The notes under the pieces were generated by a model. The model saw nothing but the letters and a program-made list of their open reading frames with translations, ran no database searches and was not told where the DNA came from. A stretch of DNA of 34,897 nt from Phycicoccus sp. Soil748. GTDB taxonomy: Bacteria > Actinomycetota > Actinomycetes > Actinomycetales > Dermatophilaceae. The translations under genes and the position numbers were made by a program. Shown piece by piece: positions 12,388-17,519 of the stretch. The DNA lies in assembly GCF_001428025.1 (NCBI RefSeq), contig NZ_LMSC01000008.1:155647-190543 (forward strand), written 5' to 3'. The stretch's first letter is position 1. Each line of letters opens with the position of its first letter.

Positions 12388-13092
12388 GTGAGCGACGACG
12401 ACCTGGCGGGCGCTGGCCCTGGCCGCGCCGGCCGTGATGACGAGGTCGGCGTCGGGCCGTGGGTCGGTGAGTGGCCGGCGGGGGACCAGTGGGACGCCGA
12501 GCTGCTGCGCGACGGCGACCGCCGCAACGTCGTCGACGCCTACCGCTACTGGCGGCACGACGCGATCGTCGCCGACCTCGACACCCGCCGCCACGACTTC
12601 CACGTCGCCGTCGAGAACTGGGGCCACGACTTCAACATCGGCTCCGTCATCAGGACCGCGAACGCCTTCAACGCCAAGGCTTTCCACATCGTCGGCAAGC
12701 GGCGCTGGAACCGGCGTGGGGCGATGGTGACCGACCGCTACCAGCACGAGCACCACCACCCCACGGTGGACGACCTCCTGGCGTGGGCCGAGACCGCCGG
12801 ACGCGCCGAGGACGGGACGGCACGCGCCATACCCGTCGTCGGCATCGACAACCTCCCCGGTTCGGTGCCGCTGGAGACCTACGACCTGCCGCGGGAGTGC
12901 GTCCTGCTCTTCGGGCAGGAGGGCCCCGGGCTGTCGCTGGAGGCGCGCCGGGCCTGCGCTGCGGTCCTGCACATCGAGCAGTTCGGCTCCACGCGCTCGA
13001 TCAACGCCGGGGCTGCCGCGGCGGTCGCCATGCACGCCTGGGTCAGGCGCCACCGGTTCGGGCAGCTGCCGACAGCAGCCCGCGGCGGGTGA
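12388..13092 (+). CDS. TrmH/SpoU-family RNA methyltransferase
   Basis: This 234-residue protein is of the SPOUT superfamily, using S-adenosylmethionine to 2'-O-methylate rRNA or tRNA. SpoU motif 1 is ENWGHDFNIGSVIRTANAF, motif 2 VLLFGQEGPGLS, and motif 3 the loop GSTRSINAGAAAAVAMHAW that forms part of the trefoil-knot cofactor site. The acidic first 35 residues (SDDDLAGAG...) are poorly conserved. GTG 12388 was chosen because of the TAGGGT box; the frame is open far upstream but only opposite the GTPase gene. The 3' end overlaps the convergent propeller gene by 50 bp. The exact target nucleotide is unknown. Confidence 0.9.
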   Translation: MSDDDLAGAGPGRAGRDDEVGVGPWVGEWPAGDQWDAELLRDGDRRNVVDAYRYWRHDAIVADLDTRRHDFHVAVENWGHDFNIGSVIRTANAFNAKAFHIVGKRRWNRRGAMVTDRYQHEHHHPTVDDLLAWAETAGRAEDGTARAIPVVGIDNLPGSVPLETYDLPRECVLLFGQEGPGLSLEARRACAAVLHIEQFGSTRSINAGAAAAVAMHAWVRRHRFGQLPTAARGG

Positions 13093-14458
13093 GGCCCAGG
13101 ACCATCAGGGCGGCGGCGCCGAGCAACAGCTCGCGCCAGTGCCAGGCCGCCCAGCCCGTGTGGGTGCCCAGCAGGCTGCTGTGTGCCGGTCCCGCAAGGG
13201 CGTCGTCGGCGAGGTCGAGCCACCCCAGGCGCAGCGCCGGGTCGGCGACGAGCGCCGGCGCGCCGGTCGTGCGTGGAGCCACGGCGGTGACCACCTCGCC
13301 GGGAGGCGTGCCGTACCACGTGGCCCCACGCCACTCGAGGTGCTTGGCGCCGGCATGGGAGGCCGTCGTCGGGGGCAGGAACGGTGACGCGACCTCGGAG
13401 GTGTCCACCTCACGACCGCTGGCCACGTCGAAGACCAGCACGGTCGACCCCGAACCCGAACCCGACCCGGAACCAGGTCCCGAGTCGTGCTGGTCGCCGC
13501 CGAGGCCGATGGCGAGGGACCTGCGGTCGGGCGAGAGGGAAGGGCTCCACTGGCTGTAGGCGAAGCCGGACACGGGCGTGGCGGGCCGCAGCACCGGCAG
13601 CCTGCGGACCGAGCCGTCCAGGCCCAGGGCCACCGGGGTGAGGGTGGTCGTGAGGTCGGTGTCAGGACCGGAGTCGCGCCCCGCGACGGCGAGCACGGTG
13701 TGGTCGTCGAGCCAGCCGGCGAGGCTGTACCCAGAGTCGGCCGCCAAGGGGCGGACCGACCCGTCGGTGCCGAGCACGAGGATCGCGACGGAGCCGTCGT
13801 TGCCGGTCGTGGCACCGGCCAGGGCGACCCGCGTGCCGTCGGGCGAGACGTAGCCGGGGGTCTGGGCGCCCACGCCGTACGGGTAGGTGGGTTCGTGCTG
13901 CGCGTCGGGGTACGCCGTGGTGCCCACCTCCGGGAAGGTCGTGGTCCGTCCGGTCACGACGTCGTGGATCCGGTAGCGGCCGTCGCCGGAGTCGACGTAG
14001 CCGAGGACGCGTCCGTCGGCTGACAACGCGGGGACCACACCGTCCATGAAGCCGCCACGGACGGGCAGGCGACGCAGGCCGCCGTCCTGGGTGACGCCGT
14101 ACCACCCGCTGTTGCGGCCCATCCCCTCGGACAGGGCGACCGCGGCGAGCGGCTCGCCCCGCCGAGGGAGGTCGCTGACGGACCACGGCCTCGCGATGCG
14201 CACGGGGTGGCCCAGGGTCACGGACCCCGACGGGGCGGCCGGTAGGGCGTCCCGGTCCCACGACCCCGGCAGCACGGCGACCACGACCGCGACCACAGCC
14301 GCCGCGGCGAGTGCGACACGGGTGCTGCGCACCCGACGACGCCGGCGTCGGCCGCGGGACCACGCGGTGGCGGCGAGGTCGGGCACCGTCCGTGCGTGAC
14401 CGGGGCCGTCGAGGTCGTCGGCAAGGTCTGCGAGGGCGTCGGACAGCACGGGGCCCAT
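13043..14458 (-). CDS. Membrane-anchored beta-propeller-like protein, partner of ECF sigma factor
   Basis: This is a 471-residue protein. A cytoplasmic N-terminal stretch of about 45 residues (acidic start, then SRGRRRRRRVRSTR) precedes one membrane helix (about 48-64). A long extracytoplasmic region has WD40/TolB-like repeats, recognisable by recurring 'SpDGtrvALaG', 'SPSLSPDRRSLAIGLGG' and 'AGWLDDHTVLAVAGRD' blades. A second hydrophobic segment (WRELLLGAAALMVLGL) is at the C terminus. It starts at ATG 14458, overlapping the sigma gene stop by 1 bp (TGATG). The topology and coupling suggest an anti-sigma-like or sensory partner, but no classical zinc anti-sigma motif (HxxxCxxC) is visible, so that role is inference. 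A GSGSGSGS tract interrupts the propeller. Confidence 0.75.
   Translation of the reverse strand: MGPVLSDALADLADDLDGPGHARTVPDLAATAWSRGRRRRRRVRSTRVALAAAAVVAVVVAVLPGSWDRDALPAAPSGSVTLGHPVRIARPWSVSDLPRRGEPLAAVALSEGMGRNSGWYGVTQDGGLRRLPVRGGFMDGVVPALSADGRVLGYVDSGDGRYRIHDVVTGRTTTFPEVGTTAYPDAQHEPTYPYGVGAQTPGYVSPDGTRVALAGATTGNDGSVAILVLGTDGSVRPLAADSGYSLAGWLDDHTVLAVAGRDSGPDTDLTTTLTPVALGLDGSVRRLPVLRPATPVSGFAYSQWSPSLSPDRRSLAIGLGGDQHDSGPGSGSGSGSGSTVLVFDVASGREVDTSEVASPFLPPTTASHAGAKHLEWRGATWYGTPPGEVVTAVAPRTTGAPALVADPALRLGWLDLADDALAGPAHSSLLGTHTGWAAWHWRELLLGAAALMVLGLTRRGLLSAAARTGGA
13445..13474 (-). repeat. Imperfect hexanucleotide repeat encoding Gly-Ser tract
   Basis: Units CGAACC, CGAACC, CGACCC and GGAACC run in tandem on the plus strand and encode GSGSGS on the minus strand within the propeller protein. 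Length variation would be in frame. Confidence 0.6.
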
Positions 14459-14991
14459 CACGTCACCACCAGTCGGTCGGTGAGCTCGACGAGCTCGGGT
14501 GCGGTGACCCGGAGGCGCTTGAGCGCATCGCGGGTCGTGGTCTTCACGGTGCTCACCGAGCAACCCAGCACGGCCGCGGCCTGGGCCTCGGTGCGGTCCT
14601 CGTAGAAGCGGAGCACGAGCACCGCGCGCTGCTTGGGGGTGAGGCGGCCCAGTGCGGCCTGCAGGAGCAGCCGTCGCTCGGACTCGGCGGACAGGTCGGC
14701 GCCGTCGGTGGGCTCGAGGGCCGGCTCGCCGACCACCCGTGGCCGGCGCAGTCGCATCCGCCACGTGTCGACGGCGCGGTGGTAGAGGACGGTGCGGGCG
14801 TAGGCCTCCGGGTTGCCCTCCTCCTCGACGGCCTCCCAGTGCTGGGCCACCTTGGCCAGGGTGTCCTGGAGGAGGTCCTCGGCCAGGTGACGGTCGCCGG
14901 AGAGCAGGTACGCGGTGCGCAGCAGGGTGCCCGAGCGCGACTGCACGAAGCGCTCGAACCCGGCCATCCCCTCCTGTCCCACACCCCCCAT
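14458..14991 (-). CDS. ECF sigma factor, SigE family (SigE-like, Streptomyces/actinobacterial type)
   Basis: This is a 177-residue sigma factor. Region 2 contains FVQSRSGTLLRTAYLLSGDRHLAEDLLQDTLAKV with the -10-binding helix, then VLYHRAVDTWRMRLRRP. Region 4 contains LTPKQRAVLVLRFYEDRTEAQAAAVLGCSVSTVKTTTRDALKRL, the -35-binding helix-turn-helix. The spacing is normal for the family. The start is uncertain: ATG 14991 is used here, and TTG 15024, GTG 15012 and ATG 14967 are alternatives. It is coupled to the downstream membrane propeller protein and divergent from the DGPF/ECF42 operon. A minus-strand GGGAAC (15032-15037) with CGTG 18 nt later could be an ECF-type promoter for it, but this is weak. 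Confidence 0.88.
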   Translation of the reverse strand: MGGVGQEGMAGFERFVQSRSGTLLRTAYLLSGDRHLAEDLLQDTLAKVAQHWEAVEEEGNPEAYARTVLYHRAVDTWRMRLRRPRVVGEPALEPTDGADLSAESERRLLLQAALGRLTPKQRAVLVLRFYEDRTEAQAAAVLGCSVSTVKTTTRDALKRLRVTAPELVELTDRLVVT

Positions 14992-15035
14992 GACGTCGAA
15001 CTGTGCCCTCACGGGTGGGTCCAAGGGCCACGTTC

Positions 15036-15051
15036 CCGGATTCTTTTCCGG
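15036..15051. repeat. Inverted repeat in the sigma/sigma divergent region
   Basis: CCGGA and TCCGG flank TTCTTT. It lies between the SigE-like sigma gene and the TGTCGA box of the DGPF operon. It is a possible operator or just chance; the 5-bp arms are short. Confidence 0.3.
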
Positions 15052-15056
15052 CAGGC

Positions 15057-15083
15057 TGTCGATCAGGACGGCGCCCGTGCGTC
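15057..15083 (+). promoter_or_regulatory. Predicted ECF42-dependent promoter (TGTCGA-N17-CGTC)
   Basis: TGTCGA (15057-15062) and CGTC (15080-15083) are separated by 17 nt and end 37 nt before the first DGPF gene. From memory, the described ECF42 target motif is TGTCGA at -35 and CG[A/T]C at -10, located upstream of DGPF genes. The match in sequence, spacing and position is complete. A GAGAGGA ribosome site follows before ATG 15121. Confidence 0.75.
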
Positions 15084-15120
15084 ATCAGGGTGCACGCACC
15101 CACCGATGAGAGGACCAGCC

Positions 15121-15480
15121 ATGACCCAGTACCTCGTGCTCCTGCCGAGCCCGGAGGCGCGCTACGCCACCGCGAGCGACCAGGAGAAGCAGGAGCTGCA
15201 CACCGCCCACACCGAGTTCGTCGAGCTGCTCGGGACCCGTGGCCACAAGATGGTCGGCGGAGCCCAGCTGACGCCCTCGACCCACGCGCGGGTCGCCCGC
15301 GGCAGCGCGCTCGACGACGTCACCGTGACCGACGGCCCCTTCGCCGAGAGCGCCGAGCAGGTCGCCGGCTACTACCTGGTCGAGTCCGACGACGTCGACG
15401 ACCTGGCGCAGGTCTGCGGCCGCCTGCTGTCGACGCCGTTCCACCCGGCGGTCGAGATCCGTCCGACCGTGGCGATGTGA
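15121..15480 (+). CDS. YCII/DGPF-domain protein 1
   Basis: This 119-residue protein is of the YCII-related family (PF03795). It opens MTQYLVLLPSPEARY with the usual first strand, has a central helix (EKQELHTAHTEFVELLGTRGHKMVGGAQL) and carries the name-giving VTDGPFAE motif at about 69-75, followed by 'EQVAGYYLVES'. It starts at ATG 15121 with GAGAGGA upstream. It is the first gene of a four-gene run ending in the ECF42 sigma factor. The biochemical role of DGPF proteins is unknown; a dimeric ferredoxin-like fold is known for YciI relatives. Confidence 0.9.
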   Translation: MTQYLVLLPSPEARYATASDQEKQELHTAHTEFVELLGTRGHKMVGGAQLTPSTHARVARGSALDDVTVTDGPFAESAEQVAGYYLVESDDVDDLAQVCGRLLSTPFHPAVEIRPTVAM

Positions 15481-15490
15481 GGGGAGCGCG

Positions 15491-15853
15491 ATGACCGAGT
15501 ACGTCGTGCTGATCATGGGGGATGCCGACCGCTGGTGGACCACCATGAGCGTCGAGCAGCGCACGGCCGGGTACGCCGAGTACACCCGGTTCGGTGAGGA
15601 GCTCGGCCGCCGGGGGCACAAGATCACCGGCGGCGCCGAGCTCCACGCCTCGGGCGAGGCCCGCAGCATCCCCGCCGGTGGTGGCACCCCGACCGACGGT
15701 CCGTTCGCCGAGGTCACCGAGCAGGTCGGCGGCTTCTACCAGGTGGAGACCGACGACCTCGACGACCTGGTGGACTGCTGCCAGATCATCGCCGCCCTCG
15801 GCGACGGCATCGAGGTACGGCGCGTGGTCAAGCCGGAGGACCGTCCCTCGTGA
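15491..15853 (+). CDS. YCII/DGPF-domain protein 2
   Basis: This 120-residue paralogue has the same layout: the first strand EYVVLIMGD, then two aromatic residues (DRWWTTM), the helix YAEYTRFGEELGRRGHKITGGAEL, the motif PTDGPFAE and then 'EQVGGFYQVETDDLDDL'. It starts 10 bp after the first copy with GGGAGCG upstream. Its C-terminal part has a Cys-Cys pair (VDCCQII) absent from the other two copies. It is GTGA-coupled to copy 3. Confidence 0.9.
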   Translation: MTEYVVLIMGDADRWWTTMSVEQRTAGYAEYTRFGEELGRRGHKITGGAELHASGEARSIPAGGGTPTDGPFAEVTEQVGGFYQVETDDLDDLVDCCQIIAALGDGIEVRRVVKPEDRPS

Positions 15854-16209
15854 GGTACGTCGTCCTCATCGCCTCTGAGCCGGGTGAGTGGGAGGCGGCC
15901 GACGAGGAGGCCCGCCAGGAGCTCTTCGACGCCCACCACGCCTTCGAGAGGTTCGTCGACGAGCACGGAAGCAGGCGGGAGAGCGCCGCCCTCGCCGACG
16001 CCGAGACCGCGACGACCATCCGCCACCGTGCAGGCGGCCCGGTCGTCACCGACGGCCCCTTCGTCGAGCTGACCGAGCAGGTCGGCGGCTACTACGACGT
16101 CGAGCTCCCCGACCTCGACACCGCCATCGCCGCGGCCAAGCTCCTGCCGAGGTCCTACACGGTCGAGGTCCGACCGACGGTGCAGGTCGAGGGGTACGAG
16201 GGCCGGTGA
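15850..16209 (+). CDS. YCII/DGPF-domain protein 3
   Basis: This 119-residue third copy starts at GTG 15850 inside the stop of copy 2 (GTGA). It is the most divergent: RYVVLIASEPGEWEAADEEARQELFDAHHAFERFVDEHGS, then VVTDGPFVEL and 'EQVGGYYDVELPDLDTAI'. The DGPF motif is intact. It is coupled by another GTGA overlap to the sigma gene, so all four proteins are probably made from one message. Confidence 0.9.
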   Translation: MRYVVLIASEPGEWEAADEEARQELFDAHHAFERFVDEHGSRRESAALADAETATTIRHRAGGPVVTDGPFVELTEQVGGYYDVELPDLDTAIAAAKLLPRSYTVEVRPTVQVEGYEGR

Positions 16210-17519
16210 CCGCCGGCGCCGACGAGCACGACCCGAGCAAGCCGAGCGGCCCGGGCGGCCGGGACGTCTCGGACGGCCCGGACGCCGCGCTCGCCCGGGT
16301 CGTGCGCGAGGAGTGGGGCCGGTTGGTGTCCCTCCTCCTCGCCCGGTTCCGCCGGCTCGACCTCGTGGAGGACGCGCTGGCCGACGCGGTCGAGGCCGCC
16401 GCCCGGCGCTGGGCGCGCGACGGGGTGCCCGACAACCCGGCCGGGTGGCTCCACACGACCGCACGGCGCCGGATCCTCGACCGGCTCCGCGGTGAGGCGA
16501 TGGCCCGGCGCAAGGTGCCGCTGCTCGTCGTGGCGGCCGAGGAGGAGGGGAGTGGCGCCGTGCGGGCCGACCCGGGTGACCTCGTCGAGGACGACCTCCT
16601 GCGCCTGGTCCTCATGTGCAGCCACCCCGCGCTCGACCCGGCGGCCGCGAGCGCCCTCACCCTGCGCCTCGTCCTGGGTGTCACCACGGCCGACGTGGCG
16701 CGCCTGTTCCTCGTGCCGGAGCCGACCATGGCTGCCCGTCTCACCCGGGCGAAGAAGAAGATCGTCACGGCGGGCATCCCCTTCGCCGTCCCCGCGGCCA
16801 CCGAGCTGCCCGAGCGGCTCGACGTCCTGGCCCAGACGGCCTACCTCGCCTTCACCGCCGGGTACGCCCCCGGCAGCGGCCCCGACGCCCTCCGCGCCGA
16901 GCTGGCCGGTGAGGCGGTGCGCCTGGTCCGGGTGGTCCTCGGCCTGCGTCCCGGCGAGCCGGTCCTCACGGCGTTGCTCGCCCTGATGCTGCTGCAGCAC
17001 TCACGCCGCGACGCCCGCGTCGACGCGCACGGAGCGATCGTGCTGCTGCCCGACCAGGACCGCAGCCGCTGGCACCGCGACGAGGTCGACGAGGCGCTGG
17101 CGCTGCTCGCCTCTCCTGCCCTCACCGGACGGGTCACCGTCCAGGCGGCCGGGTATGCCGTGCAGGCCCGGATCGCGGCCGAGCACGCCACCGCCCCCGA
17201 CGCCGCCTCGACGCGCTGGGACCGCGTCGTCGCCCACTACGACACGTTGCTCAGGCTCGCCCCGACCCCGAGCGCCCGGCTGGCGCGCGCCGTCGCGGTC
17301 GCGGAGGCCGACGGACCACGAGCCGGACTCGCCCTGCTCGACGACCTCGACGAGCAGCTGCCGCACAGCCACCGCCTGCCTGCGGTGCGGGCCGAGCTGC
17401 TCAGCCGCGCCGGAGACCACGACGGTGCCCGCGCCGCGTACGCCGTCGCGATAGCGCGCTGCGCCAACGACGCGGAGCGGGCCCTGCTGACGGGGCGCCG
17501 AGACGCGCTTGACGCCTGA
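16206..17519 (+). CDS. ECF42-type RNA polymerase sigma factor with C-terminal TPR-like extension
   Basis: This is a 437-residue sigma factor, far longer than ordinary ECF factors. Region 2 is in EEWGRLVSLLLARFRRLDLVEDALADAVEAAARRW and VPDNPAGWLHTTARRRILDRLR. Region 4 is in LTLRLVLGVTTADVARLFLVPEPTMAARLTRAKKKI. The remaining 240 residues carry family hallmarks AYLAFTAGY and HSRRDARVDAHGAIVLLPDQDRSRW, then helical repeats (HYDTLLRLAPTPSARLARAVAVAEADGP...). This is the ECF42 architecture, in which the C-terminal extension is needed for activity and the gene is linked to DGPF proteins. GTG 16206 overlaps the preceding stop. The first 25 residues are polar and poorly conserved. No anti-sigma gene is adjacent. 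Expression is predicted to depend on the site at 15057-15083. Confidence 0.93.
   Translation: MTAGADEHDPSKPSGPGGRDVSDGPDAALARVVREEWGRLVSLLLARFRRLDLVEDALADAVEAAARRWARDGVPDNPAGWLHTTARRRILDRLRGEAMARRKVPLLVVAAEEEGSGAVRADPGDLVEDDLLRLVLMCSHPALDPAAASALTLRLVLGVTTADVARLFLVPEPTMAARLTRAKKKIVTAGIPFAVPAATELPERLDVLAQTAYLAFTAGYAPGSGPDALRAELAGEAVRLVRVVLGLRPGEPVLTALLALMLLQHSRRDARVDAHGAIVLLPDQDRSRWHRDEVDEALALLASPALTGRVTVQAAGYAVQARIAAEHATAPDAASTRWDRVVAHYDTLLRLAPTPSARLARAVAVAEADGPRAGLALLDDLDEQLPHSHRLPAVRAELLSRAGDHDGARAAYAVAIARCANDAERALLTGRRDALDA

Follow-up and report, generated by a model that had tools for sequence, protein, structure and literature searches.

The operon studied here, in which three tandem DGPF genes are followed by the gene of an ECF sigma factor, raises the questions of which promoter drives it, whether its own sigma factor reads that promoter and what the three related proteins are for. 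It lies in a stretch of 34,897 nt from Phycicoccus sp. Soil748, referred to below as the window, to which all coordinates apply unless a contig is named. Based on the comparison of related genomes, the best explanation is with high probability that of an autoregulated ECF42 operon with a regulon in trans.

Organization of the operon

The operon consists of the following genes:

15121..15480, plus strand: D1, YCII/DGPF protein of 119 aa (PF03795, 31 bits; D1 class in 14 loci)
15491..15853, plus strand: D2, YCII/DGPF protein of 120 aa (PF03795, 40.4 bits; D2 class in 45 loci)
15850..16209, plus strand: D3, sigma-adjacent YCII/DGPF protein of 119 aa, GTG start overlapping D2 (PF03795, 37.8 bits)
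16206..17519, plus strand: ECF42-type sigma factor of 437 aa (Pfam; 80 of the 186 family genomes, this one among them, have a match with E <= 1e-100)

These coordinates agree with the initial annotation, which had described an operon DGPF-DGPF-DGPF-ECF42 with GTGA overlaps at its last two junctions: the overlaps are located at 15850-15853 (D2/D3) and 16206-16209 (D3/sigma), and D1 is separated from D2 by 10 bases. The DGPF motif, said there to be intact in all copies, is present as TDGPF in D1, D2 and D3, and all three proteins score above the Pfam cut-off of 24 bits for PF03795 (YCII). Proteins of the YCII/DGPF family have a ferredoxin-like fold and are dimeric.

The sigma protein contains the domains Sigma70_r2 and Sigma70_r4_2 (both above the Pfam cut-offs) and DUF6596 at residues 204-302. 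Approximately 250 residues follow region 4, and both proposed hallmarks of this long C-terminal extension, AYLAFTAGY and DQDRSRW, were located in the protein. According to Pfam the extension has no SnoaL match and consists of DUF6596 plus further helical sequence; at profile positions 369-398 there is a weak similarity to some designed chains (E 1e-5 to 7e-5), with no single stretch passing by itself. Among the four operon proteins and one neighbour per side, Pfam revealed no anti-sigma factor, as had been claimed. We call the sigma factor ECF42-type on the basis of its architecture, its gene context and its promoter.

The divergent neighbour gene (14458-15024, minus strand) encodes a SigE-family sigma factor, and a further long frame on the minus strand lies alongside it within 13043-15103. 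The SigE-family gene sits between the operon and a gene which by eye is methyltransferase-like; at several loci of the same genus, also judged by eye, the end of that gene falls right at the ECF42 -35 element.

The promoter and its conservation in orthologous loci

The promoter elements upstream of D1 are:

15057..15062, plus strand: -35 element TGTCGA (this hexamer is shared by the loci having the strict motif, 80 of 81)
15080..15083, plus strand: -10 element CGTC, 17 bases past the -35 element (CGTC in 67 and CGAC in 12 of 79 other loci)
15092, plus strand: predicted transcription start (conserved T-G step 8-9 bases past the -10 element; analogy to SMc01149)

The sequence TGTCGA-N17-CGTC, proposed to lie directly upstream of the operon, was indeed found at 15057-15083. 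The loose motif occurs at five sites in the window, while 1.8 are expected and five of 100 shuffled sequences reach this number, and at 276 sites in the genome as compared to 78 for the reversed pattern. Since such matches are frequent by chance, the loose motif is insufficient as an argument on its own, and its counts were discarded as uninformative. A matrix built from the 79 other loci gave 37 bits for the window site and -8 for the next best position, and a scan with it revealed no second promoter of the ECF42 type in the window, divergent or internal. The transcription start, previously suggested to be near 15089, is better placed at 15092, nine bases past CGTC. This position is suggested by the conserved T-G step and by Sinorhizobium meliloti SMc01149, for which the start marked in the accessible part of PMC6180224 is also nine bases past CGTC.

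To analyse conservation, the sigma protein was searched in 58 genomes and in 186 genomes of the family, which gave, in addition to the window, 81 orthologous loci: 22 from a first set of 40 stretches and all 59 of a second set. In 80 of the 81 usable loci, the strict motif TGTCGA-N17-CG[A/T]C lies no more than 260 bases ahead of the first DGPF gene, compared to eight of 4050 Markov sequences and three of 4590 other windows from the same loci. The single exception is L135, whose upstream part is short, since this stretch begins at the first base of a contig. That TGTCGA, CG and C do not vary in the 79-locus matrix is a product of locus selection; beyond these bases, the A following CG[T/A]C is invariant in all 79 non-window loci, and the T and the G of the T-G step are each found in 78 of them.

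The extended motif and targets in trans

The fixed columns of the operon loci define the extended motif TGTCGA-N17-CGTCA-N6-TG. With at most one mismatch it occurs only twice in the own genome (3.97 Mb), both times perfectly, and the reversed pattern occurs once; an earlier version of the pattern was picked with the second of the two sites already known. One site is the window operon, the other, on contig C7 (G000:C7:157147), precedes an orphan YCII gene, one of seven YCII matches in this genome. Four further members of the genus have likely counterparts of this gene with the promoter at zero or one mismatch (L115, L116, L126, L134). Thus, the proposed genome search for the motif had a divided outcome: in its loose form the motif is widespread, while in its extended form it is confined to two sites.

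In the 186 family genomes the perfect extended motif is present at 137 sites, the reversed pattern at two. At least one perfect site is found in 66 of 80 genomes bearing the sigma gene (orthologue match at E <= 1e-100), but in only 29 of the 106 others (Fisher p 3e-14). The 14 sigma-bearing genomes without a perfect site comprise 12 with CGAC, one lacking the T-G step and one with the locus at a contig end. The sites in the 29 genomes without an orthologue are taken for promoters of other ECF42 branches in part, and for chance matches in part. In the genomes G193-G201 (genus g73), which have no window-type sigma gene, a similar promoter with GAGTTCGTCAGGATGATG recurs; it probably belongs to another ECF42 branch.

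The 101 sites in sigma-bearing genomes correspond to 66 operon promoters, including one (G187) which lies on a broken contig and is identical to the G011 promoter, and to 35 others, namely the own orphan YCII gene and 34 fetched sites. At these 34 off-operon sites the next gene encodes a YCII protein in 25 cases (profile E <= 1e-3), a glyoxalase-like protein in four, an MFS protein in two and a mycothiol-S-transferase in one, and two sites (L307, L337) have no convincing gene. Pfam was run on L304, L305, L307, L320, L324 and L329, while L306 and L333 were named by their likeness to L304 and L329. Six of the 36 sites in other genomes were also fetched: L342 precedes a YCII gene by profile and L339 and L341 gave nothing, while by eye L338 shows a cut-short YCII-like start, L340 resembles L305 and L343 resembles L329.

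The promoter in 80 of 81 loci, its co-occurrence with the sigma gene and the two extended sites in the genome strongly support the earlier proposal that the sigma factor drives its own operon. It very likely drives, in addition, a small detoxification-like regulon. According to the model that we favour, the sigma factor together with core RNA polymerase would read TGTCGA-N17-CGTC at 15057-15083, and transcription would begin at approximately 15092, resulting in one mRNA for D1, D2, D3 and the sigma factor. The extra sigma factor made from its own operon would constitute a positive feedback, and the orphan YCII gene on C7, bearing the same promoter, would be switched on as well. Since YCII, glyoxalase-like, MFS and mycothiol-S-transferase genes are the targets in relatives, we infer that the operon answers a small toxic or reactive molecule, and that the handling of such molecules may be the task of the DGPF proteins. 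These observations are important for two reasons. In GC-rich genomes, likely targets can be told apart from chance matches by the extended promoter, and the kinds of co-regulated genes, including YCII classes, point to small-molecule detoxification and offer a testable lead to what DGPF proteins do in ECF42 operons.

Paralogous ECF42 genes and classes of DGPF proteins

The own genome carries three ECF42 genes, that of the window and those on contigs C5 and C9. The operon on C5 has the sequence TGTCG[T/G]-N17-CGTGGAG-N-GGGTG in common with an orphan YCII gene on C6 (G000:C5:87616-87651 and G000:C6:349016-349051; L344, L345). The pattern was built from these two sites themselves, and no further site with up to two mismatches exists in the genome, compared to three for the reversed control. 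The promoter of the C9 operon is TGTCGA-N17-CGAC. Another promoter type of the genus, TGTCGAG with CTCCGTCC, is found in the set L118, L120, L121, L122, L132 and L133. There it precedes YCII-like genes, three of which neighbour another ECF42 gene, as well as a RibD_C gene and PNPOx-like genes (L121 slightly under the Pfam cut-off, L122 by eye).

The number of DGPF genes varies between loci: among 82 loci, 22 have three, 34 have two, 18 have one, seven have four and one has none, with L171 and L172 perhaps overcounted and L170 cut by a contig end. Three copies are therefore not unusual in this branch. Of the 96 loci that are distant or paralogous, 64 have one DGPF gene, 16 none, 12 two and four three; all four triples belong to the 13 loci of the window's branch (L194-L206), and the 83 ECF42 loci outside of it have one (61), none (16), two (6) or three (0). 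Loss within the array is evident from eight loci (L053, L058, L067, L172, L181, L183, L189, L190), where DGPF genes between the promoter and the sigma gene are truncated, frame-shifted or interrupted.

The initial annotation had considered the three copies distinct, and a tree of 172 proteins bears this out with uneven node support: D1 (0.90), D3 (0.65) and D2 (0.24, so that its grouping as drawn is weak) fall into separate classes that recur across genera. The D3 class adjoins the sigma gene in 75 of 81 loci; pieces of D3 are found in two more (two pieces in L067, an interrupted gene in L172), and L144, L173, L176 and L190 have no D3 or only a trace. The D2 clade is represented in 45 loci and the D1 clade in 14, and a loose further class X comprises 25 operon proteins. 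Four-base overlaps join D2 to D3 in 29 of 34 such pairs and D3 to the sigma gene in 40 of 75. The D2 class is strongly conserved (GDADRWW, GY-EY-RF, RGH, GGAELH) and has the most conserved residues, its mean distance in 40 loci being 0.33 as compared to 0.47 for D3. By these comparisons D3 appears as a near-constant companion of the sigma factor, with D1, D2 and the fourth class of relatives being optional. The classes thereby single out D3 as the candidate sigma companion and D2 as the candidate enzyme.

Alternative explanations

It could be argued that the window promoter is read mainly by the C5 or the C9 paralogue while the window sigma factor serves other genes, so that there is cross-talk. 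Three ECF42 genes coexist in this genome, the other two operons also have TGTCG-type -35 elements and N17 (L071, L072), and the C9 promoter is close to the window type. Yet the C5 operon and the C6 orphan use TGTCGT or TGTCGG-N17-CGTGG instead, and the window-type promoter accompanies the window-type sigma gene in 80 of 81 loci, which makes us regard such cross-talk as quite improbable. A second question is whether the DGPF copies are redundant tandem duplicates that only raise dosage. The range from one to four copies, the extra D3-type copies in eight loci and the lack of D1 or D2 in many relatives would fit this, but D1, D2 and D3 form separate classes in many genera with class-specific conserved residues, even if node support is uneven, and we consider pure redundancy unlikely. 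We rather assume that the three proteins would be members of separate classes and not spare copies of one protein.

Since the operon has no anti-sigma gene, control of the sigma factor presumably lies with its C-terminal extension and a partner protein; dependence of ECF42 activity on the extension is described in the accessible part of PMC8999054. It is conceivable that the DGPF proteins, chiefly D3, are ligand-sensing regulators of the sigma factor instead of enzymes and that the operon is a sensor loop. D3 lies beside the sigma gene in 75 of 81 loci, with an overlap in 40 of these 75, and the review (PMC8999054, the part accessible) assigns the neighbouring YCII protein to the regulatory mechanism and mentions fusions of YCII with ECF. 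At the same time, the orphan YCII genes located in trans behind the same promoter resemble effectors, and a mirror-tree analysis of 40 loci contradicted the expectation that D3 would be the partner: it favoured covariation of the sigma C-terminus with D2 and not with D3 (partial r 0.35 vs 0.10, the difference ranging from -0.41 to -0.05 in the bootstrap), which speaks against D3 in this role. We therefore see the sensor loop as a possibility that is the less probable one, and the autoregulated operon with targets in trans as the preferred explanation; regulator and effector roles of DGPF proteins could coexist.

A probable stem-loop at the 5' end of ECF42-type transcripts

In many ECF42-type transcripts a short stem-loop, with unrelated stem sequences, seems to begin within a few bases of the predicted start (part of L308-L335, L071, L074, L346:740-779). 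For the analysis, leader starts were set nine bases after CG[T/A]C, and a stem of at least six pairs with a loop of 3-8 bases was demanded. A stem positioned at the start is present in 49 of 80 operon loci, compared to a mean of 3.75 (largest 11) after shuffling of the tails and to 10.8% of other windows; the loci are mutually related. When positions +3 to +8 were taken as the arm, 57 of the 80 loci kept five or six of six pairs. The pair at +5 in these 57 is T-G (31), C-G (9), T-A (4), G-C (4), A-T (3) or G-T (1), with no pair in five, a variability more in keeping with RNA than with a DNA operator.

Off-operon targets behave similarly: 17 of 34 have at least six pairs (shuffle mean 1.1, largest 5; 11% of window stretches), and among the 18 with at least five pairs 15 stems begin at +3 or +4. 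When the examined windows were shifted upstream into the promoter, four to eight of 34 reached at least six pairs (six to 20 at least five), and when they were shifted downstream, none or one did (one to three at least five). Among 53 distant operons or orphan genes with the N17 motif, 22 have at least six pairs (shuffle mean 1.5, largest 6), including 15 of the 40 outside the window's branch. In S. meliloti, SMb20475 has a nine-pair stem from +2, while 113 of 20000 shuffles reach eight pairs; the start was assumed to be the last base printed in the accessible part of PMC6180224. The folding energy of this leader is not unusual (z -0.74). Whole-leader folding energy in general gave a weak signal (mean z -0.83; 15 of 80 below -2) and was rejected as a proof of the hairpin, which is why positional stem counts were used.

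The six-pair stem is absent from 31 of 80 operon leaders, including those of the window and of most of its genus. The window has the following repeat:

15088..15101, plus strand: inverted repeat GGGTG-CACG-CACCC, its register differing from that of the relatives' hairpin

This repeat would form a 5' hairpin only if transcription started at or before 15088, about four bases before the predicted start. Thus, a 5' leader hairpin is likely an element of the ECF42 group, judged by the positions of complementary bases, while the window operon does not clearly show a share in it.

It is tempting to join these observations with those on the paralogues, and we give about even chances to a reading in which ECF42 transcripts share a 5' stem-loop and paralogous ECF42 factors have separate promoter codes. 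The stem-loop may begin mostly at +3 or +4, be conserved in structure and not in sequence, and occur in several ECF42 branches; it may extend to one alphaproteobacterial target. As for the codes, at least two paralogues may each serve their own operon and one orphan YCII gene. If true, the stem-loop would be a regulon-wide RNA element guarding or regulating the mRNA end. A literature search that stopped short of the main ECF42 papers met no report of the leader hairpin or of the DGPF classes.

Comparison with known systems

Examples of ECF42 factors are Sven_0747, Sven_4377 and Sven_7131 of Streptomyces venezuelae, ECF-10 of Pseudomonas putida and RpoE10 of S. meliloti (PMC8999054, PMC6180224, accessible parts). 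As far as these sources go, the window operon shares with them a long C-terminal extension (in the known factors about 200 residues with TPR repeats), the YCII gene alongside, the lack of an anti-sigma gene and TGTCG-N17-CGTC promoters. The promoters of RpoE10 are of the form TGTCGG-N17-CGTC in the accessible part of PMC6180224 (spacing counted by us), and the class TGTCG[A/G]-N17-CG[A/T]C fits them as well as the window site at 15057-15083 and 80 of 81 loci.

The same part of that paper states that overexpression of RpoE10 did not raise the YCII gene of S. meliloti itself. Self-activation therefore does not seem to be universal in ECF42, and the self-regulation which we propose for the window operon was not seen for RpoE10. 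Further differences to known ECF42 systems are the three DGPF genes of separate classes and the orphan YCII gene under the same promoter in the window genome. Among solved structures, the profile of alignment A2 matched a single chain, that of the YCII protein PDB 1s7i (PA1349; E 4e-25), which has the DGPF motif in common; compared by sequence, the D2-class motifs GDADRWW and GGAELH are absent from the aligned 1s7i. The window factor also resembles ECF41 (SigJ type), in which, according to the accessible part of the review, a regulatory domain is fused to the C-terminus of an ECF sigma factor, but the extension of the window factor is made of DUF6596 and more helical sequence, without a SnoaL match. 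Altogether, ECF42-DGPF operons are already known, and the window operon is a well-conserved member of this group with more copies and more DGPF classes than most.
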